Origin: Candidatus Palauibacter australiensis
GTDB taxonomy: Bacteria > Gemmatimonadota > Gemmatimonadetes > Palauibacterales > Palauibacteraceae
Assembly: GCA_026705295.1 (NCBI GenBank)
Contig: JAPPBA010000096.1
Coordinates: forward strand, 1-47,309
Length of the DNA: 47,309 nt
Reading direction: 5' to 3'
A program made the translations under genes and the position numbers. This document shows, in pieces, positions 37,957-47,309 of the stretch. Numbering within the stretch: the first letter of the stretch is position 1; each line of letters opens with the position of its first letter. Below the pieces are notes generated by a model, which saw nothing but the letters and a program-made list of their open reading frames with translations, made no database searches and was not told where the DNA came from.

Positions 37957-38517
37957 ATGGATCGTCGGATGGTCGAATACGAAGCGAAGAAGCAGACGCC
38001 GCTCGTGGCGTACATTCTCCTCGTGGTGTTCGGCGTCGTGGGCGCCCACAACTTCTATCTCGGACGACGCGGACAGGCGCTGGCCCAGCGGGTCGCCAAA
38101 GGTCTGAATCCCGGCAGGAAATCTTCTAACTACTTACAGGGCTGCACGATCTGCGTTTCCTGCCATTGTACTGGATCTTGCTGGAACGAGTTGCCAGAGC
38201 GGGAAAATCGGGCGTCAATGGCGGGAGTAGTAGCGCCTGATTTGGACGCCGAATCGAGATCAGCGGGGTGCTCGTTCATGGCTTTGCAATCCACATCGAC
38301 CTACGAATCCGCACCCGATCCCTCATCCAGCCACCAAGAAGCAATGGGCTCACCCGCAGGCCTCACGCTTTCCCAAGGACGGGGTACGACCGGCTCTGCC
38401 ACTCACGGCGACGGCACCAGTGCATGCCTCACCGCGTTCGGATCGTGCTTGATAATGCGCAGAAGCGCCGCTGCCGGACCGCTCACGCGGCGTCTCCCCT
38501 GCTCCCACTTTCGGTAG
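37957..38517 (+). pseudogene. TM2-domain gene, truncated after first helix
   Basis: The ATG has GGAGG 7 nt upstream and encodes YEAKKQTPLVAYILLVVFG followed by VVGAHNFYLGRRGQA, the first helix and the diagnostic G-x-H-x-FYLG turn of a TM2 domain. The second helix (normally a hydrophobic run ending in a W-x-hydrophobic-D motif) is missing. After about residue 44 (nt 38,089) the frame enters unrelated sequence (GLNPGRKSSNYLQGCTICVS) and continues antisense to higA until a chance TAG. Only the first 130 nt are gene-like. The loss coincides with the left edge of the acquired region. Confidence 0.7.
38090..38402. other. Non-coding junction at left edge of acquired region
   Basis: About 310 bp between the TM2 break and higA. 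It is less GC-rich than the backbone and has stops in the frames I followed. No transposase, integrase or insertion-sequence end was recognised. A tRNA T-arm look-alike (GGTCTGAATCC) at 38,101 cannot form the stem. Probably a decayed recombination scar. Confidence 0.45.
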
Positions 38518-38687
38518 CCGGAAAGGCTCATTCCCATCAGGGCCGCCATTTGCGTCTGCGTCAGCTTCGCCTCCATCCGAACCTCGCGGGGCGAGATCGG
38601 GGTGTGAACGATGGCGGGACCCTCGCCCTTCTCATGGTCCAAAGCCTCGTTCAACGACTGGATCAGGTCTTCTCCGAACGTGCTCAT
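38403..38687 (-). CDS. HigA-type XRE antitoxin
   Basis: A 94-aa helix-turn-helix antitoxin, second gene of a toxin-first pair. The HTH reads MEAKLTQTQMAALMGMSLSGYRKWEQGRRRVSGPAAALLRII, the pattern of HigA/YiaG-type proteins. The N-terminal 35 residues (FGEDLIQSLNEALDHEKGEG) should form the toxin-binding helix. ATG overlaps the toxin TGA (ATGA). It is expected to bind HigB and repress the promoter at 39,029-39,057. Confidence 0.88.
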   Translation of the reverse strand: MSTFGEDLIQSLNEALDHEKGEGPAIVHTPISPREVRMEAKLTQTQMAALMGMSLSGYRKWEQGRRRVSGPAAALLRIIKHDPNAVRHALVPSP

Positions 38688-39022
38688 TTGCTCTGCTTTC
38701 CTTGGAGCTTGATGGCGGCCACGAGCGCGGCCACCGCTCGGCGCTCGCTGGGGCTCAAATCGGTCTTGTCGGACTTCGAGTAGGCGAGAAGCGCGTAGAT
38801 CGGCACTCCTTCGCCCCCGAAGAAATAGATCACGCGGACGCCGCCCCGCTTACCGCGCCCGGAGGCTCCGAATCGCATTTTTCGGACCCCGCCCGTGCCG
38901 GGAATCTCGTCGCCCGCCAAGGGATGCTCGGCCAAGTAGTCGATCAGGTTGCGTCTCTCGTCCTCGGTGAACAGCTTGTCGGCCTGACGAGAGAATGTTG
39001 GAGTCTCGGCGACGGTCTGCAT
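38684..39022 (-). CDS. HigB/RelE-family toxin
   Basis: A 112-aa RelE-fold mRNA interferase of the HigB-2 group. Matching features are TFSRQADKLFTEDERRNLIDYLAEHP at the start, the basic strand GVRKMRFGASGRGKRGGVRVIYFF and the end PIYALLAYSKSDKTDLSPSERRAVAALV. The chosen ATG has no Shine-Dalgarno sequence. Instead a TTGCCA-17-TACCAT promoter places the predicted +1 on the A of the ATG, so the message may be leaderless. Toxin precedes antitoxin, the usual higBA order. Longer in-frame extension upstream is not protein-like. Confidence 0.88.
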   Translation of the reverse strand: MQTVAETPTFSRQADKLFTEDERRNLIDYLAEHPLAGDEIPGTGGVRKMRFGASGRGKRGGVRVIYFFGGEGVPIYALLAYSKSDKTDLSPSERRAVAALVAAIKLQGKQSK

Positions 39023-39028
39023 GGGAAC

Positions 39029-39057
39029 ATGGTAACCCAATGGGGTATCCGTGGCAA
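39029..39057 (-). promoter_or_regulatory. higBA promoter, predicted leaderless
   Basis: Minus strand: -35 TTGCCA (5/6), 17-bp spacer, -10 TACCAT (4/6). The +1 at 7 nt past the -10 is the A of the higB ATG (39,022). TACCCCATTGGGTTA spans the spacer and -10 as an imperfect inverted repeat, a likely HigA operator. Confidence 0.6.
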
Positions 39058-39116
39058 GCTCGGAAGCCCCGCCCCACACTCCCTCTTCGCCGAGAACGCA
39101 GCGGGGCCAATTCCTC

Positions 39117-39133
39117 CCCGACTCCACGTCGGG
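39117..39133 (-). terminator. Hairpin downstream of the six-gene operon
   Basis: CCCGAC, a 5-nt loop, GTCGGG, starting 28 nt after the methyltransferase stop on the minus strand. Short stem and no U-run; a weak terminator candidate separating the operon from higBA. Confidence 0.4.
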
Positions 39134-39160
39134 CACCGGCTCGGACTGCTGACAGAGCGA

Positions 39161-40237
39161 CTAACCGTCTTCTTCTCCCCCAGCCGGTGGCGGCGACGTC
39201 GGCGGATCTTTCGGACTCCTCCTCCTCCCACCGTCCTCTACCAATGGATCAGCTGGCGTCCCAACCCAGAGAGCATCCGGTCGCGAGACCTTGTAATGGC
39301 TCACTCTGTTTTGCTCTTCCGCATTCCTCCGTTCGGTCTGTCCTGCCTCGAAACGTCCCTTCGCCCCTTCCAGGTACTCCTCGATAGATTCAACGCACGT
39401 CCATCTCCGCTTGAGCCGTTCGCACACAGCTCCGCTCACGCAACTGCCAGCAAAGGGATCCAAGACCGCGTCACCTTCATCGGTCAGCATACGTACAAAA
39501 AACTCTGGAAGTTCGTCGGGAAATCGCGCCGGGTGGGGCCTAATCCCTCGCTCTCGGCAGTATCTTAGGTAGTAGCTGTTACTAGCGCTGTTGGCGATAG
39601 CAATCAGGTTTGGCGGAATTGCCGCTCCGTTGTCGCGCTCGAACTTCGTGCTGATATCATGTCCTGACGGTCGGCGCTTCGCCCTGTATCCGTTCTTCAA
39701 CAAGTACTTCATACTGTCGCTGTATGGCACCAACACCCTTCGATTCGTTGCTTTTGGCCAGGGCGTTGGAGCCAACCAGTACACTGAATTAACCGCATCT
39801 TTTACGCGAACCCTCCGGATGTTGACCCACTCCGCAGGAGTCGGTAGACGCGACGGATTCCACCAGTAGAACTCTTGGGCGACGTGAAACCCCACGTCCT
39901 CGCAGAGCATCACCAACAGCTTGAAATGATACAAGCTGCGCGTTGGTTGTCCCTTCTTCCATGCCCCGCCAATATCTACTACTAGACTGCCCGACTCCTT
40001 AAGTAGGCGTTTGAACTCCCTTCCAAACGGCTCAAACCATTCGACGTATCGGTCGGCATCCTCGTTTCCGTAATCCTTCTTCCTCACTAACCCGAACGGC
40101 GGACTCGTGACGATCAAGTCGTAACTCTTGTCTGCTAGTGACTTCATATACCGCAGGGAGTCGCCAAGTACCATTCGGCCATGCTTCGTGTGGCAAAACA
40201 CCCTCGGCTCTTGCTCTAACATTTCATCACGTGTCAT
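39161..40237 (-). CDS. DNA methyltransferase, beta class (N4-cytosine or N6-adenine)
   Basis: A 358-aa S-adenosylmethionine-dependent DNA methylase. Catalytic motif IV TSPPFG (44-49) precedes the SAM-binding motif I DPFAGSC (260-266), the beta-class order. The SPPF form of motif IV fits N4-cytosine enzymes best. HPARFPDELPEFFVRML before motif I is the usual motif X region. The central 90-230 segment would hold target recognition. The last 25 residues (GGRRRSPKDPPTSPPPAGGEE) are low-complexity and GC-rich, as if reading into flanking DNA. Start ATG overlaps the preceding gene by 11 nt; an ATG at 40,270 is an alternative. It ends the operon and is the likely self-marking component. Confidence 0.88.
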   Translation of the reverse strand: MTRDEMLEQEPRVFCHTKHGRMVLGDSLRYMKSLADKSYDLIVTSPPFGLVRKKDYGNEDADRYVEWFEPFGREFKRLLKESGSLVVDIGGAWKKGQPTRSLYHFKLLVMLCEDVGFHVAQEFYWWNPSRLPTPAEWVNIRRVRVKDAVNSVYWLAPTPWPKATNRRVLVPYSDSMKYLLKNGYRAKRRPSGHDISTKFERDNGAAIPPNLIAIANSASNSYYLRYCRERGIRPHPARFPDELPEFFVRMLTDEGDAVLDPFAGSCVSGAVCERLKRRWTCVESIEEYLEGAKGRFEAGQTERRNAEEQNRVSHYKVSRPDALWVGTPADPLVEDGGRRRSPKDPPTSPPPAGGEEDG

Positions 40238-41546
40238 GGTCGCTATCCGCTTCCGTGTTCTTGGAATCACCGTCCCGCCCCCTCAACCCCCATCGTCCGC
40301 GTCCCAATGCGATCAGGCGATTGGACGGCACGATTTGTAGAGTGGATCGGACTCCCCGCACCGCCCGTATAGCCTTCCGAAGTCTGCCCGTTGAAAGGGG
40401 CGCACCTGCTCGTACTAGCGCTTCGACGGCGAGATCTTCGATGTTGCGGCGTTCCTGTTCGGCCGCAGGCGAACCACGAATCGCCCATACAAGTCTGTTC
40501 AGTGAAATCACCTTCTTGGAGTCCCTCAAGAAGGCCTCCACCGTGTATTCGTCGATTCCGTCTTGGGGGAATCTCAAGCGATCCGACAGGGACCGCACTA
40601 TCTCCGAACAATGCCATTGGCGATTGGGGTCCGTTGTGAGTAGGTCCTCGGCTGCTCGCCGTAACTCTCTGCCCTGTACCTGCGTAAGATTGAAGTGCCT
40701 TCGGGAACCATAGCGGCGTCGCGAAAACTGATATACGTCGGGTTGTCGCAGAGCGTTTCGTAATCCACTCGTCACGGTCTTCAAGCTTCTCCCGTTGAGG
40801 CCCACTCGTGCGCGATATCTTTCGCAGATGGCCGGCATCGCCAGCGGCGCGGGGGCCTCGAAGAGTATTACGCGAAGGATCGTCCTATAGTCACGCCCCA
40901 AGCCTAAGAGAACTTCCTCGGAGGAATCTGGATCGAAACCGTATTGTGCAGACTCGTTAACGATCCTGACCAAGTCTTGGGCGAGATCGCCAGCTCCCTT
41001 CTGGCGAGCCGTCGCATTCACGAGCAGGCTAACGTCTTGCCGTGTGAGCCGCGATGATCCGAACCCGGCAACTATGTCCGTGCTTTCCCGGCATAGAGCC
41101 TTCCAGTGTCGTTCCGACAACCGAGTAACGATGTGCCGGACATCCCATCGCCATACGTGAAGCGTGTTGACGGACCAAGTGCGGATCAGGTGACCGGTGA
41201 GAGACGGGTTATCGTCAATCCCGCGAAACCAGTGATCCTCAGTGTCCAACATCTCCAGGAAGGCAGGTTGCCGTCGGTCGGCCAAAGCCACACCGAGTTT
41301 CGCGAGTAGAGTCACACGGAGATGCTTCGCCTCCCCGATTCGCCTAGTGGCTCTTGCCACAATCTGTCGGATGCGCTCTCGGCTGACGCCGAAATCGCGA
41401 GCTATCGCCTCCAGCGTGGACCCGTCACCCTCTCGCGGAAACCGCTTTGCGAGGACCATCCGATCGCGCTCGTCCAATCGTTCCAACCCCGCCGCGAGGA
41501 TCTCGCGTATCGCCGTTCGACGTCGAGGCTGCTCAACGGAACTCAT
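40227..41546 (-). CDS. Sigma-70 region 4-like protein with winged-helix repeats
   Basis: A 439-aa DNA-binding protein. Residues about 15-72 are a close sigma-70 region 4 (LERLDERDRMVLAKRF, then STLEAIARDFGVSRERIRQIVARATRRI, nearly the RpoD 4.2 helix-turn-helix). There is no region 2 or 3, so it cannot be a complete sigma factor. Three later segments look like winged helices: about 225-295 (ILRVILFEAPAPLAMPAICERY), about 305-365 (QWHCSEIVRSLSDRLRF), and about 375-430 (AVEALVRAGAPLSTGRLRKAI ending GRGRWGL), a HARE-HTH-like arrangement. ATG overlaps the gene before it (ATGA). Possible roles are operon regulator, RNA-polymerase recruiter or DNA-binding subunit. Confidence 0.75.
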   Translation of the reverse strand: MSSVEQPRRRTAIREILAAGLERLDERDRMVLAKRFPREGDGSTLEAIARDFGVSRERIRQIVARATRRIGEAKHLRVTLLAKLGVALADRRQPAFLEMLDTEDHWFRGIDDNPSLTGHLIRTWSVNTLHVWRWDVRHIVTRLSERHWKALCRESTDIVAGFGSSRLTRQDVSLLVNATARQKGAGDLAQDLVRIVNESAQYGFDPDSSEEVLLGLGRDYRTILRVILFEAPAPLAMPAICERYRARVGLNGRSLKTVTSGLRNALRQPDVYQFSRRRYGSRRHFNLTQVQGRELRRAAEDLLTTDPNRQWHCSEIVRSLSDRLRFPQDGIDEYTVEAFLRDSKKVISLNRLVWAIRGSPAAEQERRNIEDLAVEALVRAGAPLSTGRLRKAIRAVRGVRSTLQIVPSNRLIALGRGRWGLRGRDGDSKNTEADSDHDT

Positions 41547-41926
41547 TTCTCGGCACCAATGACTTCATTCAAGATGCCCGCTAGGTGGACCGGTCCTTGC
41601 ACCAAGCGTCGGCGCAACTCCTCGAGTCCCCACTCCGCCAAGCGCTGACACGTCTCGTACACCGGCTCGTCAGTCGTCGATGTTCGGAGGGCCAACACTG
41701 CTTGATAGATCGTATCGTCCGGATCGAAGGTTCCCCTGTTGAACATCGTCTGTCGTTCGCCCTTGGCACGAGCTCCCTCTTCTCCAGACGCCAGCGCAAG
41801 CGCTAGAGCGAATCGATAGGCATCCAGTTTATCTTGAAACAGTCCTGCCTCTTGGAGTTGCCGCAAGGTCTCCGCCGCTTCTAAGCTCACGCTTAGCGTG
41901 GTTGGTTCTTTCAACGTATCTCTCAC
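41543..41926 (-). CDS. Small DndE-like protein
   Basis: A 127-aa protein. TLSVSLEAAETLRQLQEAGLF followed by DAYRFALALALASGEE recalls DndE (short helical DNA-nick-binding protein; ...ILCRLALALSLEEG). The C-terminal half (DTIYQAVLALRTSTTDEPVY, then LAEWGLEELRRRL) is extra. Similarity is by eye and weak. Position next to a DndD-like ATPase gene supports it. ATGA overlaps on both sides. If not DndE-like, it is a small middle subunit of the kind found with SMC-like ATPases in three-component conflict systems. Confidence 0.55.
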   Translation of the reverse strand: MRDTLKEPTTLSVSLEAAETLRQLQEAGLFQDKLDAYRFALALALASGEEGARAKGERQTMFNRGTFDPDDTIYQAVLALRTSTTDEPVYETCQRLAEWGLEELRRRLVQGPVHLAGILNEVIGAEK

Positions 41927-43905
41927 AGCTTTCGAATCCTTGATCTGGACGACGTTATACGTTCAATTTCGTATCTTGCCCCTACACGAGATGCAACCGG
42001 TGAAAGGCCGCCCTCTTTCGACACTTCGCCTTCATGTACCAGCAACACAACTTGCGACGCCATCACGGGTAGGTACTGGAGCACGTTGTGGCGGTGTCGC
42101 GGATCCAGTCTACCCAAAGGAGTATCCATCAAGATCGGGCCAGCCCGCTGCCCAGTACGATTCAGGCCGTGAATCAGAGCTAGTGCCACGATTTGCTCGG
42201 CTCCGGCACTCTTCTGCGGTATCTTGCGTCCTTTTCTGTCTACAATGGACAATCCGTATACGTCATTGATCTCTAGCTTCTCAAACGACTTATCCGTAGT
42301 GAGTTCCAGAAATGCCTCGGTGGCAGATCGTTCTACCGAAGCTCGTAGGCGATCACGGAGACGGTCGACGCCTTTCCTAAAAACAGATTCGAGCGTACCG
42401 TAAATCCTATAGAGACGGGCACGGTCCTCCTCGCGGCCACCAGACACTCCGCGGCTTATGATCTCCGCACGCCTTTTTTGCGCCACCTGGGCGTGCTTGA
42501 TGGCTTCCGCTCCCTCCCTGACCTTTTGTTCCACTTGGCCCAAGAGTTTAACCTGTCGATCCCGTAGCGTGCGTACCCGCGCTATCTCACGCGTATCCAC
42601 TCCTCGTATCTGCTCTTCGAGATCCTGCTTTCTGTTCTCAAGTCGCGTCTGTTGCACCGCGAGACCACCGAGCTCGCCTGCTGCGGCAGTCAGTCCTTCC
42701 CTGGCACCTCGATGAATCACGGTCCCAAGCTGCTTGATGCGCAAGCCCACTACGCCGAGGTGACTCGCGACATCCTCGGTGGCATCCTCACGCTCCTTTA
42801 GGGTAGTTAGTCTCTTTCCAACGCTACGCGCTCCCTCTTCGGATACGGGCTGCACGCAAATCGGGCACACGCCAGAATCTAAGAGGCTGTTCAGCTGCTC
42901 CACTTCGTGCCGCCTAGCCCCCTGTTCCGACAATGCAGCCTGAAGTTTTTCTCGTTCCTGTCGTAATCGATCGATCTCCCTCTGCAATTGAGGGGTTAGC
43001 ATCTCCCGCCATGCCTCGCTTGCGTGTCCTAGCCGCTCTTGCTCCAGACTTGTCATGCGATCCTGCAAGTCGTTCAACTCTTGTGACACTCGGTCGATAT
43101 CCCTCTTTGCTTCTTCGGCTCGCGCTGTACGCTCCAAGCGCCGGTCATATCCCGAGATTTCCTGCTGTAGCTCCGCCTTCTGTTTTTCTAACGCCCGCTG
43201 ATCACGGCGCAGACTGTCCAAATCGGCATCCGCTACCTCGTACTCCTTGCTCAGTGCCTCTAGCCCGCTCCTCTGCTTGGCGAGCTTTGCAAGTTCTGCC
43301 GACGCCTCCTTACTCAGGCCTGTCAGATCGTCCCGCCCGTTAATGAGAGCCGGTACGCCTAGTGCCTGTTCAACAGCGTTCCGGATCCGGTTCCCTTGCT
43401 CGCTATCTTCGATCAATAGCTCTTCGTACTCGGCGAGCAATTCGGCATCAAACAGAAAGAAGCGGGCCGTTTGTCTTGGGGCGATCCGACTCAACTGGCC
43501 TTCGATCGCATCAAAAGGCAGCACGGTAGGTCCCCGTCGCAAGAACAAAGTCTGTGTATAATCACGGTTCTTCGTAGGTCGATTGACGCCCGGTGCCAAT
43601 CGCATCGACCGACCTAGCTCATAGTCCACGCCGTCGTACTCAAACGTCGCCGTCACTCCGAACTCGTGATTCCCCTCGTCGGCGGAATCCATATTCGCAA
43701 TATCGCAGTAGGCGCGGGGTTTGCGATTCCGATCGAGGACCTCGCCGTAAAACACCCACCGTACCGCGTTTAGCAAACTAGTCTTACCTCGCATATTATC
43801 GCCGAAAACCACGAGGACGTTGTGATCGCCATCGGCGGGGAAGCGCAACGTCTGTTCGCCGTAAAACGGGAGAAAGTTGGTGACAGTCAACCGGCGGAGT
43901 CTCAT
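41923..43905 (-). CDS. DndD/Rad50-like SMC ATPase with zinc hook
   Basis: A 660-aa P-loop ATPase. Walker A is GDNMRGKTS (35-43) after FLPFYGEQTL. The FFLFDAELLAEYEELL segment (149-164) resembles the DndD FFFDGE block. Coiled coils run about 195-345 and 360-485 and are joined by a CPIC zinc hook (Cys347, Cys350). Signature KSAGAEQIVALALIHGL (565-581) with SAGAEQ for LSGGE, Walker B ILMDTPLGRLD (591-601) and switch His624 complete the head. Such proteins dimerise through the heads and hooks and load on DNA. DndD partners sulfur-modification enzymes, but none is seen here, so sensing or looping of invading DNA is a better guess. ATGA junctions on both sides. Confidence 0.85.
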   Translation of the reverse strand: MRLRRLTVTNFLPFYGEQTLRFPADGDHNVLVVFGDNMRGKTSLLNAVRWVFYGEVLDRNRKPRAYCDIANMDSADEGNHEFGVTATFEYDGVDYELGRSMRLAPGVNRPTKNRDYTQTLFLRRGPTVLPFDAIEGQLSRIAPRQTARFFLFDAELLAEYEELLIEDSEQGNRIRNAVEQALGVPALINGRDDLTGLSKEASAELAKLAKQRSGLEALSKEYEVADADLDSLRRDQRALEKQKAELQQEISGYDRRLERTARAEEAKRDIDRVSQELNDLQDRMTSLEQERLGHASEAWREMLTPQLQREIDRLRQEREKLQAALSEQGARRHEVEQLNSLLDSGVCPICVQPVSEEGARSVGKRLTTLKEREDATEDVASHLGVVGLRIKQLGTVIHRGAREGLTAAAGELGGLAVQQTRLENRKQDLEEQIRGVDTREIARVRTLRDRQVKLLGQVEQKVREGAEAIKHAQVAQKRRAEIISRGVSGGREEDRARLYRIYGTLESVFRKGVDRLRDRLRASVERSATEAFLELTTDKSFEKLEINDVYGLSIVDRKGRKIPQKSAGAEQIVALALIHGLNRTGQRAGPILMDTPLGRLDPRHRHNVLQYLPVMASQVVLLVHEGEVSKEGGLSPVASRVGARYEIERITSSRSRIRKL

Positions 43906-44114
43906 TGGGCTGTACCTTTAGCCACGCGGTCTTTTTGTCTCATCAGTTCTTGGCCTACCACTTCGCGAAGTCTGTCGTGGACTGATGTCCGATCGTCTGA
44001 GAACCGAGAGTCATACTCAATCGCGAAACACGATTGCACCAATGCCTCACTGACAGGATGCTTTGATTGGCGGTTCAATTCGAGCAGAACCTGCAACGCT
44101 TCAGGATGGCTCAC
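43902..44114 (-). CDS. Small hypothetical protein of the candidate defence operon
   Basis: A 70-aa protein (ALQVLLELNRQSKHPVSEAL, then FAIEYDSRFSDDRTSVHDRL, ending EVVGQELMRQKDRVAKG). No recognised family. Predominantly helical and highly charged. It is locked between the helicase and ATPase genes by ATGA overlaps on both sides, which argues strongly that it is real and stoichiometric with them. It may be an adaptor between the ATPase and the nuclease-helicase. Confidence 0.7.
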   Translation of the reverse strand: MSHPEALQVLLELNRQSKHPVSEALVQSCFAIEYDSRFSDDRTSVHDRLREVVGQELMRQKDRVAKGTAQ

Positions 44115-46132
44115 TCGTCCTCCTCATGCTCAATTGTCTCCACTGATTCCAAATCGACGTTACACTGCGCGGCCATTCTCTTCGCAGCTACGATCGCAGA
44201 CTGGTTCCGGGCAGAGAGTGCGAACTCAAGCGCTCGTGCAAGTTCCGCTTGGGCCAACGCCCGCTGATCTTCGTCAGTGAATGGCGGAGGCACGACGAGC
44301 GCGTCATGGATGACCGCATGGAACTTGTCAGGTGCTCTTCTCAGTACGCGGCCTCGACGTTGAATAAATTGGCGTGGATTCTGCGACGAAGCAAGAATCA
44401 ACGCATGCGTTGCGACGGGGATATCAACTCCCTCGTCCAAGCAGCGCACCGATAGCAGCACACCACCCGCGGCGCAGAACCAATCAAGGGTGGCCTCCGG
44501 ATCCCCTTCCATTGCGTAGTGGTATTCCGCCGCCTGGATTCCGTGCGCAGCTATGGCATCTCGTAGCTTTGTGAGCTGATCGAGGTCTTCGCAGTAGACG
44601 AGCCACCGTTGGCCGCTCTCAAGACGATCGACCAGTACTTGCGTGGCCAAGGGGATCTTCCCCACCGCCTTCTTTCCGATACGGGACCGCTTGATCAGCA
44701 AGAGACGGATGTGTTCCGGCACCTGAGTATCGCCGTTCGAGGTTGGGACGCCGGCAATGGCTCGGGCGATGCGCGTCGTAAGAACTGCCCATTGGGCTGC
44801 TTCGTCATCGGTCAATGACACTGTGTGGGGGTAATACTCATACGGCACAAGGCGACCTGCCTTGATTGCGTCCGACAGAGTGAAGGGTGGTGGGACAACA
44901 CCTTGGAAATAGTCCATTAGAAGCTGCGTGCCAAAGGGATCGCCAAACCGGCGTGGGGTAGCACTCAGCCCCAAGCGACGATCCGCGTCCAGATTGAGCA
45001 GCTCGGCATGCTTGGTGCTGCCGGCTTGATGGACTTCGTCCACCACCAGAAGTAGGCGGTCTCGCGGAAGAACGCGATGTCGAAAAGCAGACTTAGCCGC
45101 GGTTTGCAGCGTCGCTAGGACAATCCGCGGGCCCAAGGCGTCGTTTGCCATCGTGAACCGCTCCAGTCTCTCCGCGTTGCGCCACGAGTCGTGACCTCCG
45201 CCAACGCGAAGGACTGTAGCTTGGGGAAGGCACTCCTGTAACTCCCTGCTCCATTGCCGTTGCAGTGTTCGGCTGGGAACCACTACGATGGCCACGCCAG
45301 CAGGAGAGATATGGCGCTCGATAGCAAGGATAGCGGTGTAGGTCTTTCCACTCCCTGTGGCGTGTTCGAGGATGCCGCGATACCCCCGTCGTTCCCATTC
45401 GTCGAGGGCGGCGGCTTGGTGTGGAAACGGAGTCCGGGATACTCCTTGACGGCGTTGGGGCAGCTCTAGATCGGCAACGTCACCACGAGCAACCGTCAAT
45501 AGTCTCTGCTTGACGGCATCGGGAAACTCAAAGACCTGGAGATCGGTGACCAATCCGACCCACAACCGCTCAAAATAGCCAGCATGATTACTTACACGGT
45601 GAGTTTCGGTCCCGCCTTTCCACGAACAAAAAACCTCGAACGACTCGAAGTTTCCGCTCCTATGCCAACCCTGCCATGTCTCGTTTGAAGAGCCGCGAAA
45701 CGTCACCATGCGTCGGTGTTGATCTCGGAACACACCTAGTTTCTCGTGATAGTGTCCCGTCTCGACGGGTCGAATCGCGACCTTCAGATCAAGAGCGCCG
45801 ACCGCGACCAACGTCGCGAGGACTTCGGCGTGCGGACGCAGCTCGCGCAGGCTCAGGAGTTCTTCGACCTGGACCGTCAGTCGGTCATGAGCTATGTCAA
45901 TCCGCTCACGGTACCCCACGCGCAATGCATCGATGTCCTCTCCTGTCAGATCAGGGCAGCATACGACGCGGAGTCGGCCGCCACGCCGGACGAAATCCAG
46001 AACCTCAGATCTAGCGAGTTCGAAAACGGTGGACCGGAAGAAACCGACGGCGCGATCATACCTGGTCGCGCGGCGAAGGCAAGGCACAAAGAAGGCTCCG
46101 ACTAGATCCATCTCGCCAGTGCGGTAGTCCAA
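44111..46132 (-). CDS. PLD-nuclease/SF2-helicase fusion, 5' end uncertain
   Basis: A 673-aa protein. Residues 1 to about 200 form a phospholipase-D-type nuclease domain: RYDRAVGFFRS, then HxK(x)5D as His129-Lys131-Asp137 and GSSNET (148-152). Residues 235-640 are a superfamily-2 helicase: HATGSGKT (257-264), DEVH (365-368), SAT (390-392), ASSQNPRQFIQRRGRVLRR (motif VI). It should translocate on and cut DNA, the restriction-type effector. The only starts are TTG at 46,132 and an internal ATG at 46,111, neither with a good ribosome site. The frame stays protein-like upstream (LIHESSQALWKGPEAPVGTG) to a TGA at 46,259, with no ATG or GTG. The 5' end may therefore be lost. Confidence 0.85.
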   Translation of the reverse strand: MDYRTGEMDLVGAFFVPCLRRATRYDRAVGFFRSTVFELARSEVLDFVRRGGRLRVVCCPDLTGEDIDALRVGYRERIDIAHDRLTVQVEELLSLRELRPHAEVLATLVAVGALDLKVAIRPVETGHYHEKLGVFRDQHRRMVTFRGSSNETWQGWHRSGNFESFEVFCSWKGGTETHRVSNHAGYFERLWVGLVTDLQVFEFPDAVKQRLLTVARGDVADLELPQRRQGVSRTPFPHQAAALDEWERRGYRGILEHATGSGKTYTAILAIERHISPAGVAIVVVPSRTLQRQWSRELQECLPQATVLRVGGGHDSWRNAERLERFTMANDALGPRIVLATLQTAAKSAFRHRVLPRDRLLLVVDEVHQAGSTKHAELLNLDADRRLGLSATPRRFGDPFGTQLLMDYFQGVVPPPFTLSDAIKAGRLVPYEYYPHTVSLTDDEAAQWAVLTTRIARAIAGVPTSNGDTQVPEHIRLLLIKRSRIGKKAVGKIPLATQVLVDRLESGQRWLVYCEDLDQLTKLRDAIAAHGIQAAEYHYAMEGDPEATLDWFCAAGGVLLSVRCLDEGVDIPVATHALILASSQNPRQFIQRRGRVLRRAPDKFHAVIHDALVVPPPFTDEDQRALAQAELARALEFALSARNQSAIVAAKRMAAQCNVDLESVETIEHEEDE

Positions 46133-46224
46133 CTCCAGCTCAAGAGTGGACAGGCCTTCGTTGAAGTCACCGGTACCAACCGGCGCCTCGGGACCCTTCC
46201 AGAGAGCTTGAGACGATTCGTGAA

Positions 46225-46470
46225 TCAGCTGGTGAGTCTCCCTTCTACGTGGTCCGGTTCAGCCGCTGGTTGGGGTCGGCGGACCATCGTCGTCAACGGC
46301 GTGGACGGGGTCGCGCGCGCAAGGGCTCTGGAAGCGCGTCGCGGGCCAGCACCGAGGGCGCGTGATTCACCGTTCCCTGCGCACCGAGGTGGGCGGGGCG
46401 AATGGCCAACTCGGCATGTCTTCTGCGGTCGAGCGGGGTGCCGCACGATCCGCTCGGGCAGGGTCTTCAT
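46225..46470 (-). CDS. Hypothetical 81-aa ORF with a strong ribosome-binding site
   Basis: AGGAGAG stands 7 nt before the ATG (MKTLPERIVRHPARPQKTCR...), between the relaxase-like gene and the helicase gene on the same strand. The product is Arg/Pro-rich without a recognisable domain and overlaps the 5' extension of the helicase frame. It could be the start of a gene whose remainder was replaced by the low-GC cassette. Coding status doubtful. Confidence 0.3.
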   Translation of the reverse strand: MKTLPERIVRHPARPQKTCRVGHSPRPPRCAGNGESRALGAGPRRASRALARATPSTPLTTMVRRPQPAAEPDHVEGRLTS

Positions 46471-46554
46471 GGCGTCTCTCCTCGCGTCAGAACGATCAGT
46501 CAATATAACGCCGTCGACCTCGAAAACACCCGGCTTGATGCCAACATCAAGGGG

Positions 46555-47309
46555 TTATCGCTCGAACCCTCCCCCGCCACGCTCGGGGCCTCGGGGCCGG
46601 GGCTGCCGGGGCGGAATACGGGTCACGCTCCGGCCGCGCTCCCGCCCCCATGCCCCTTCGCGCTCCTTCGTCTCCCCCGACGCCCGTCCGTACCGCTCCG
46701 CGTCCCGCAGCCCTCTTCGGTAGCCCTCGCGCACCTTCCGCTCGATCTGGCGGGCGCTTTCACCGTGTGCTTTCCCCAGCGCGGCCCGCTCGCCCTTGTG
46801 GTACCGGTCGAGATCCTCGCGCCAGCCCTCGACCAGATCCTCCCGGCCCCGGACCGCTCCGACCAGTTCCCGCAGCGAGCGATCGAGCCGCCAGATCCGG
46901 AGTCGGCCGCGCAGTGTGCGGCTCTCCCGGTCGAGCCTCTGTCGGTTGTCCTCCTGCCGCTTGTGCAGCTCGGCCCATTCCTTCCGCGCTCGGGTCTCCA
47001 GCCGCCAGAACCCGAGCCAGCGCCCGTCCTCGACCTTCTCCCAAGCCTGGGCCTCGGCACGTCGCCAGGCCTCCATGTCGACGCGCTCCTCGTCGACCGG
47101 CTTCCTCGCCCGCCGCGCCCGCCTTGGAAGCATCCCCTCGCGGCGGTATCGCGCCCAGTGACGCGGCCGGTCCCATATGGGGCGAAGCACCTCCTCGCCC
47201 GCCCGCCGCCGCTCGTTGTTCTTGACCCGCCTCTCGACCCTGATCCGGCCCTGCTCCCGCTCGTAGCCCTCGGCCCAGCGCGACAGCCGGAGCTTGCTGT
47301 TTCCGAGCT
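46555..47309 (-). CDS. C-terminal part of a MobA/MobL-like relaxase (5' end beyond window)
   Basis: The frame is open from the window edge to TAA at 46,555 (251 residues visible). It starts NSKLRLSRWAEGYEREQGRI followed by RVERRVKNNERRRAGE, which resembles the conserved region that follows the nuclease domain in MobA/MobL (MobQ) relaxases. The rest is a very charged helical domain (ARKEWAELHKRQEDNRQRLDRE, ERKVREGYRRGLRDAERYG). The His-hydrophobic-His catalytic motif would lie outside the window. If right, it nicks an oriT for conjugative transfer. High GC like the backbone. The identification rests on pattern only. Confidence 0.5.
   Translation of the reverse strand, partial: LGNSKLRLSRWAEGYEREQGRIRVERRVKNNERRRAGEEVLRPIWDRPRHWARYRREGMLPRRARRARKPVDEERVDMEAWRRAEAQAWEKVEDGRWLGFWRLETRARKEWAELHKRQEDNRQRLDRESRTLRGRLRIWRLDRSLRELVGAVRGREDLVEGWREDLDRYHKGERAALGKAHGESARQIERKVREGYRRGLRDAERYGRASGETKEREGAWGRERGRSVTRIPPRQPRPRGPERGGGGFER

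Follow-up and report, generated by a model that had tools for sequence, protein, structure and literature searches.

Probable integration of a tyrosine recombinase element at a short near-palindromic core inside a TM2-domain gene of Candidatus Palauibacter australiensis

Integrative mobilizable elements (IMEs) are mostly present as single copies, and those that encode a tyrosine integrase usually use the end of a gene, according to PMC5704250. SE, GInt and RIT elements are described in PMC10214605 as carrying two or three recombinases together with helper genes. PbeABCD or CxC ABC ATPase-DndE systems comprise PbeA, PbeC, the small proteins PbeB and PbeD and a DNA methyltransferase, according to PMC10853773. 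The locus analysed here has points in common with each of these systems. It lies in a window of 47,309 nucleotides, which is the entire contig C96 of the source genome (G000), a 3.58-Mb draft in 188 contigs. Our analysis leads us to conclude, with high confidence, that a mobile element is integrated here, its left attachment core being the heptamer listed as recombination core in Table 1, and that the tyrosine recombinase encoded at the element's right end recombined TGGNCCA with the TGGCCCA present in a TM2-domain gene, splitting this gene.

The PF05154 (TM2) profile matches positions 37990-38088 and ends after profile positions 2-34 of 51 (E values of 8.5e-9 and 9.1e-9). The reading frame stays open until 38517, and its residues beyond ...GRRGQALAQ are unrelated to TM2. 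The original prediction had placed the break at about 38,090, which is accurate to 2-3 bases, the last base in common with intact TM2 genes being 38087; it had also proposed that the first helix and the FYLG turn are retained and the second helix lost. The missing half, which it was proposed to look for, lies on another contig (G000:C57:1627-1884) and is the sole match within the genome. Directly adjoining it upstream are a 403-aa tyrosine recombinase gene and a second copy of GCTGGCCCA, and 3' of it is a gene that we named ketosynthase-type, which is the same neighbour as in G007. The right end of the element finishes with an ATG that shares the reading frame of the TM2 remainder (ATG CTG GCC CA), and a short restart protein could be produced from this remainder, as predicted from the reading frame. 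The frame match was looked at on 18 of the 21 junctions given, those that passed the script's filter. Since this near-palindromic core is read in one and the same phase, xTG GNC CAx, in either orientation of the element, this match may follow from codon usage rather than selection.

We searched 17 genomes of the genus and could read the TM2 site in 12 of them, G000 included. The gene is uninterrupted in eight, where it continues ...ALAQL(L/V)FS..., as was to be seen in close genomes free of the insertion, and it is broken at the same point, ...GCTGGCCCA, in the other four (G000, G004, G009 and G013); among these, G009 was scored as broken though its left side is a rearrangement, and G001, which holds a TM2 remnant only, was kept outside the 12. 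In close relatives the same site is either empty or occupied by other islands of the same family. The empty G003 and the filled G004 are identical in 1587/1587 left-flank and 303/304 right-flank bases, which amounts to one base different in 1,891, and the bases found on both sides of the G004 insert, by comparison with G003, are GCTGGCCCA. The elements at TM2 in G000 and G004 carry different cargo. In G013 the integrase end abuts the TM2 5' half, showing that the element is in the opposite orientation, and thus that the near-palindromic core is usable both ways. A tree of the proC-TM2 region requires at least four changes of state between intact and broken. The TM2 site has apparently been hit four separate times in the genus.

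Among the alternatives, the one that survives best assumes a single old ancestral insertion, precisely lost in most species. The gene would become intact again if the element were excised by its own integrase, and the changes required by the tree may be losses. This scenario is nevertheless disfavoured, and we regard it as unlikely, given the opposite orientation in G013, the different states of G003 and G004 within near-identical flanks, and the unlike cargo of G000 and G004. Separate insertions at the TM2 site are also to be considered in relation to the frequency of the core. TGGNCCA occurs 36 times in 114,006 bases, which extrapolates to about 1,100 per 3.6 Mb. It was found in all nine right ends of this integrase clade in the genus, four of which are located in TM2. 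Set against the number of TGGNCCA sites, this proportion suggests that TM2 is a preferred site, beyond what the 7-mer by itself explains. A distinct arrangement was observed in contig C29 of G009 (L038:1284-6800), where the TM2 5' half joins a transposase-like gene, presumably of the IS1380 type, at TGGCCCA, and the 3' half is inverted on the same contig; it is likely an inversion between two cores.

The short direct repeat sought at both ends measures 9 bp at the TM2 site, of which 7 bp constitute the core. The 7-base limit was set by an independent site in Gammaproteobacteria, where, in 9/10 congeners, homology to the right flank sets in at the T of TGGTCCA; five of the six displayed sites are empty and read ...TGGTCCAGCAACAC uninterrupted, the sixth being misplaced in the matching. 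Transposed to the window, this comparison of empty and filled sites places the core at 38081-38087 and the first base of the element at 38088. When both ends of a copy were paired they had 8-13 bp in common in 11/11 cases, part of which may be element end rather than target as the left window took in the element's first 8 bases, while mismatched pairs had at most 7 bp in common in 105/110 cases and 8-10 bp in 5/110. A convincing repeat was absent at the assigned ends in 3/8 Palauibacter copies (G009_C4, G005_C60 and G006_C28); a 20-bp repeat is present in G006_C28, but away from the assigned ends. The intact genes, the missing half and the direct repeat support the earlier proposal that the break in TM2 marks the left edge of an acquired region.

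At its right end the element carries a gene (G000:C57:376-1587) for a tyrosine integrase (PF00589, 4.2e-17), whose nearest solved chain is 4a8e, a XerC-like recombinase (E 1.7e-5). Tyrosine recombinases share a catalytic set composed of R-K-H-R, W and Y; the R, K, H and R residues are invariant in 45/45 integrases, and W and Y are found in 44/45. Integrase matches were obtained in 15/17 congeners at E <=0.001, although G011 gave a best match of 36% identity and the matches of G010 and G014 are short pieces. These data bear on the possibility that a DDE-type transposon or insertion sequence was inserted and made a short target duplication. The insert is indeed flanked by a short direct repeat; however, the right-end gene encodes a tyrosine recombinase that retains the catalytic residues, four genomes are interrupted at one and the same point, with either orientation represented, and the core is TGGNCCA in every right end of the clade in the genus, which makes a DDE transposon very improbable.

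Integration by the right-end recombinase would proceed by joining the near-palindromic core TGGNCCA of a circular element to TGGCCCA inside TM2. The junctions that we observed, with one core copy on each side of the split gene, are those expected from such a reaction. The 139-bp left end and a right end of about 73 bp may constitute the arm regions bound by the recombinase, and the circular junction of the excised element is predicted to read ...GGCAAATGC-TGGNCCA-GCGGGTC.... The element carries MobC and a relaxase and is probably, on the basis of its gene content, an integrative mobilizable element, which would depend on conjugative machinery encoded elsewhere for its transfer.

A scan of genome contigs yielded 121 related loci, of which 80 were kept. 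The stretch of about 300 bp after the break, noted earlier as devoid of recognisable genes, includes the conserved 139-bp end of the element, for which an alignment of 23 copies, including several partial ones, was made. Matches to the right end were obtained in 11/17 congeners. A model of the right end matches 75/80 loci and a model of the left end 18/80, the latter in loci whose upstream sequence is limited to 10 kb and many of which begin near the integrase. The inverted repeat inside the left end reads GGCAGGAAA...TTTCCTGCC, and the left end also bears a 14-bp motif, CTGCACGATCTGCG, whose reverse complement is located upstream of the integrase start by 37-42 bp, or 65 bp in one case. We detected this motif in 22/23 left ends (at most one mismatch) and in 58/59 integrase upstream regions (at most two mismatches), the 59 being the loci, out of 80, for which the integrase start was available together with 160 bases or more of preceding sequence; in control windows drawn from these loci the count was 26/1180. 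It could be an arm site or a regulator site, to which we assign it as a candidate.

The repetition of a short sequence adjoining varying genes, toxin-antitoxin pairs among them, recalls an integron cassette array in which the 139-bp repeat would be an attC site. This reading is weaker still than that of a DDE transposon. The integron integrase profile TIGR02249 exceeds its cut-off in only 1/17 congeners and is absent from G000, the 139-bp left end as a whole folds no better than its shuffles (DNA fold z of +1.06, and +1.05), and an integrase of the present family was found in 24/24 near-complete copies examined, being broken in one. An attC site was ruled out by this absence from G000 and by the poor folding. 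The sole integron integrase over the cut-off in the 17 congeners is at G011:C376:7438-8367. A small non-coding MITE- or REP-type repeat was also considered, and ruled out by the integrase at the other end of the near-complete copies. Finally, although the sequence is a draft metagenome assembly in 188 contigs, an assembly error at the junction has a negligible probability, as the same junction occurs in G004 with other cargo, both ends fit the expected core, and two single-contig chromosomes also contain the family, 5/8 of the regions fetched having two readable ends.

Table 1. Coordinates of the TM2 gene, the element and its cargo in the window, and of two related elements in other loci.
Feature	Position	Strand	Evidence
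TM2-domain gene 5' part (first helix, FYLG turn), core included	37957..38087	+	PF05154 2-34 of 51; intact orthologues in 8/12 genomes
Direct repeat GCTGGCCCA	38079-38087	.	second copy at G000:C57:1627-1635
Recombination core TGGCCCA, last 7 bases of the repeat	38081-38087	.	7-base limit from independent gammaproteobacterial site
Conserved left end, 139 bp, dispersed repeat in the genus	38088..38226	+	matches in 14/17 congeneric genomes
Inverted repeat inside the left end	38113..38164	.	sequence and alignment
14-bp motif	38142..38155	-	reverse complement of motif upstream of integrase start
HigA-like antitoxin (HTH_3)	38403..38687	-	PF01381 1.3e-8; copies 94-98% identical in three other places
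HigB/RelE-like toxin	38684..39136	-	PF06296 5.5e-6, at cut-off; copies elsewhere
DNA methyltransferase (N6/N4 type)	39161..40270	-	PF01555 3.5e-36; PADLOC MTase_II 9.2e-114
Protein with sigma-70 region 4-like HTH	40227..41546	-	PF04545 1.2e-13
Small protein, 127 aa, PbeD/DndE position	41543..41926	-	without family match; inferred from partners described in PMC10853773
PbeC-like ABC ATPase (CxC/DndD clade)	41923..43905	-	PADLOC PbeC 1.8e-199, DndD 2e-51; CPIC motif
Small protein, PbeB position	43902..44114	-	without family match; position only
PbeA-like helicase	44111..46132	-	PADLOC PbeA 3.7e-199; ResIII/Helicase_C
MobA/VirD2-type relaxase, C-terminal 250 residues, cut by contig end	46555..47307	-	74-86% identical to relaxase genes of other elements
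Element in sibling integrase gene	L168:4519-11247		catalytic tyrosine codon
Element in sibling integrase gene	L190:145-6868		catalytic tyrosine codon

The start of MobC, the integrase and the right end of the element are located on G000:C57:1-1628. Relaxase and MobC pieces homologous to the ends of contigs C96 and C57 lie 656 bp apart in the four relatives that have both (L119, L120, L121 and L123). From this spacing, the two separate contigs would be linked across a gap of about 656 bp, giving an inferred element of about 11.5 kb. The N-terminal part of the relaxase, and what is missing of MobC, would be encoded in this gap. The DNA to the right of the break had been predicted to be accessory in type, which agrees with its content: a HigBA-like pair, a Pbe/CxC-DndE-like operon and the end of a relaxase gene. 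The true start of the toxin of the HigBA-like pair is probably internal (MQTVAE...). Similar pairs, with a HigA 94-98% identical, recur beside element ends or integrases in L012, L131 and L120, the toxin being matched by a short piece only in L120. A CxC/Pbe-type operon, together with the methyltransferase and the protein with a sigma-region-4-like HTH, spans 39161-46132 and associates in one operon the PbeA helicase and the PbeC ATPase, whereas DndA, DndB and DndC were not recognised among the ORFs scanned. No conjugation apparatus family was found among the 10 ORFs scanned in 37957-47307, a range that stops at the gap of about 656 bp. The same 10 ORFs of the window contain no recombinase, and the right end encodes one integrase; this count covers those 10 ORFs and the right end. 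A complete relative of the relaxase was found in L119 (PF03432, 1.7e-24). This relaxase is complete in only 6/24 near-complete relatives, which indicates that mobilizability is not general in the family, and MobC is present in 7/24.

The titles of the related loci name Gemmatimonadota, Gammaproteobacteria and Acidobacteria MAGs, the source samples of which we take, from isolate names, to be sponges and corals. Two Gammaproteobacteria MAGs gave 37 and 49 matches to the integrase family, and the two single-contig chromosomes 14 and 11, with fragments and weak matches counted; the counts cover these four genomes. We built an integrase tree of 45 rows from G000 and 44 of the 80 loci, chosen for match length and label spread; L147 and L164 were labelled Gemmatimonadota by us and are listed as Pseudomonadota in the database. 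Phylum labels change 17 times along this tree against a shuffled mean of 17.4, and are thus as mixed as shuffled ones. Binning errors could add to this mixing, but one gammaproteobacterial flank was confirmed by 9/10 congeners. The family seems to move between phyla. Cargo was surveyed with PADLOC at a cut-off of 1e-8 in 17 relatives, with at least one large ORF submitted for each. Matches were obtained in six (L123, L231, L151, L184, L202 and L209), including restriction-modification genes in L151 and L123 and, within the family element of L231 (OX638356.1, a single-contig chromosome), a type I Zorya system, ZorABCD. The remaining 11 had no match at this cut-off: ten are L121, L120, L227, L228, L229, L230, L178, L190, L168 and L145, and the eleventh, L119, had a best value of 3.7e-8.

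In some loci the DNA adjoining the right end encodes an integrase of the same family. This was the case in 14 of the 68 loci, out of 80, with at least 60 bases of flank, the flank being taken from 130 bases after the integrase match; such a match denotes a neighbouring integrase gene and does not imply a disruption in each case. Among the 14, some may go back to a single event (L160/L171 and L165/L166). Both flanks are visible in L168 and L190; there, a second integrase gene is interrupted by the element, and the codon of the catalytic tyrosine lies within the repeated core GTTACCAGC. The right flanks of L155 and L194 gave no MobC match in the flank search, though they look MobC-like by eye; from an NNLNQIARW motif they may belong to a MobC gene.

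The broken gene noticed in the window becomes a defined attachment site with empty-site controls. The integrase, the 139-bp left end and the TGGNCCA core provide a simple handle to count and track a mobile family that in part carries defence genes, and, with empty and filled sites available in pairs, integration can be put to a direct test in a laboratory strain. More tentatively, the related loci may form an undescribed high-copy family with a single integrase, in which each clade would use its own short near-palindromic core, often in coding sequence and in either orientation. Such a family might pass among Gemmatimonadota, Gammaproteobacteria and Acidobacteria with marine sponge and coral hosts in common, spread phage-defence cargo, and disable rival elements by inserting into the integrase genes of siblings, in two cases at the catalytic tyrosine codon. 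We found no description of it among the open-licence PMC papers listed.

Like IMEs, the element has its own tyrosine integrase, direct repeats at its ends, a MobA/VirD2-type relaxase with MobC, and cargo, with no conjugation machinery among the ORFs scanned. Unlike them, the family is present in many copies per genome, often within coding sequence, at short near-palindromic cores and in both orientations, and 18/24 near-complete relatives do not have this relaxase in full. SE, GInt and RIT elements likewise rely on tyrosine recombinases, reach several kb and carry cargo, and SEs leave short spacers at their ends; in the present element one integrase is the only recombinase seen among the ORFs scanned. 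The resemblance to PbeABCD systems lies in the PbeA- and PbeC-like proteins, the small proteins at the PbeB and PbeD positions and the methyltransferase; the operon differs from PbeABCD and CxC-DndE systems by the added protein with a sigma-region-4-like HTH and by lacking recognisable DndA, DndB and DndC in the ORFs scanned. Finally, as in defence islands borne by mobile elements, the element carries a defence-type operon, and some of its relatives carry Zorya or restriction-modification genes. In contrast to such islands, the family is compact and built around one integrase family, and it occurs in MAGs labelled with three phyla.
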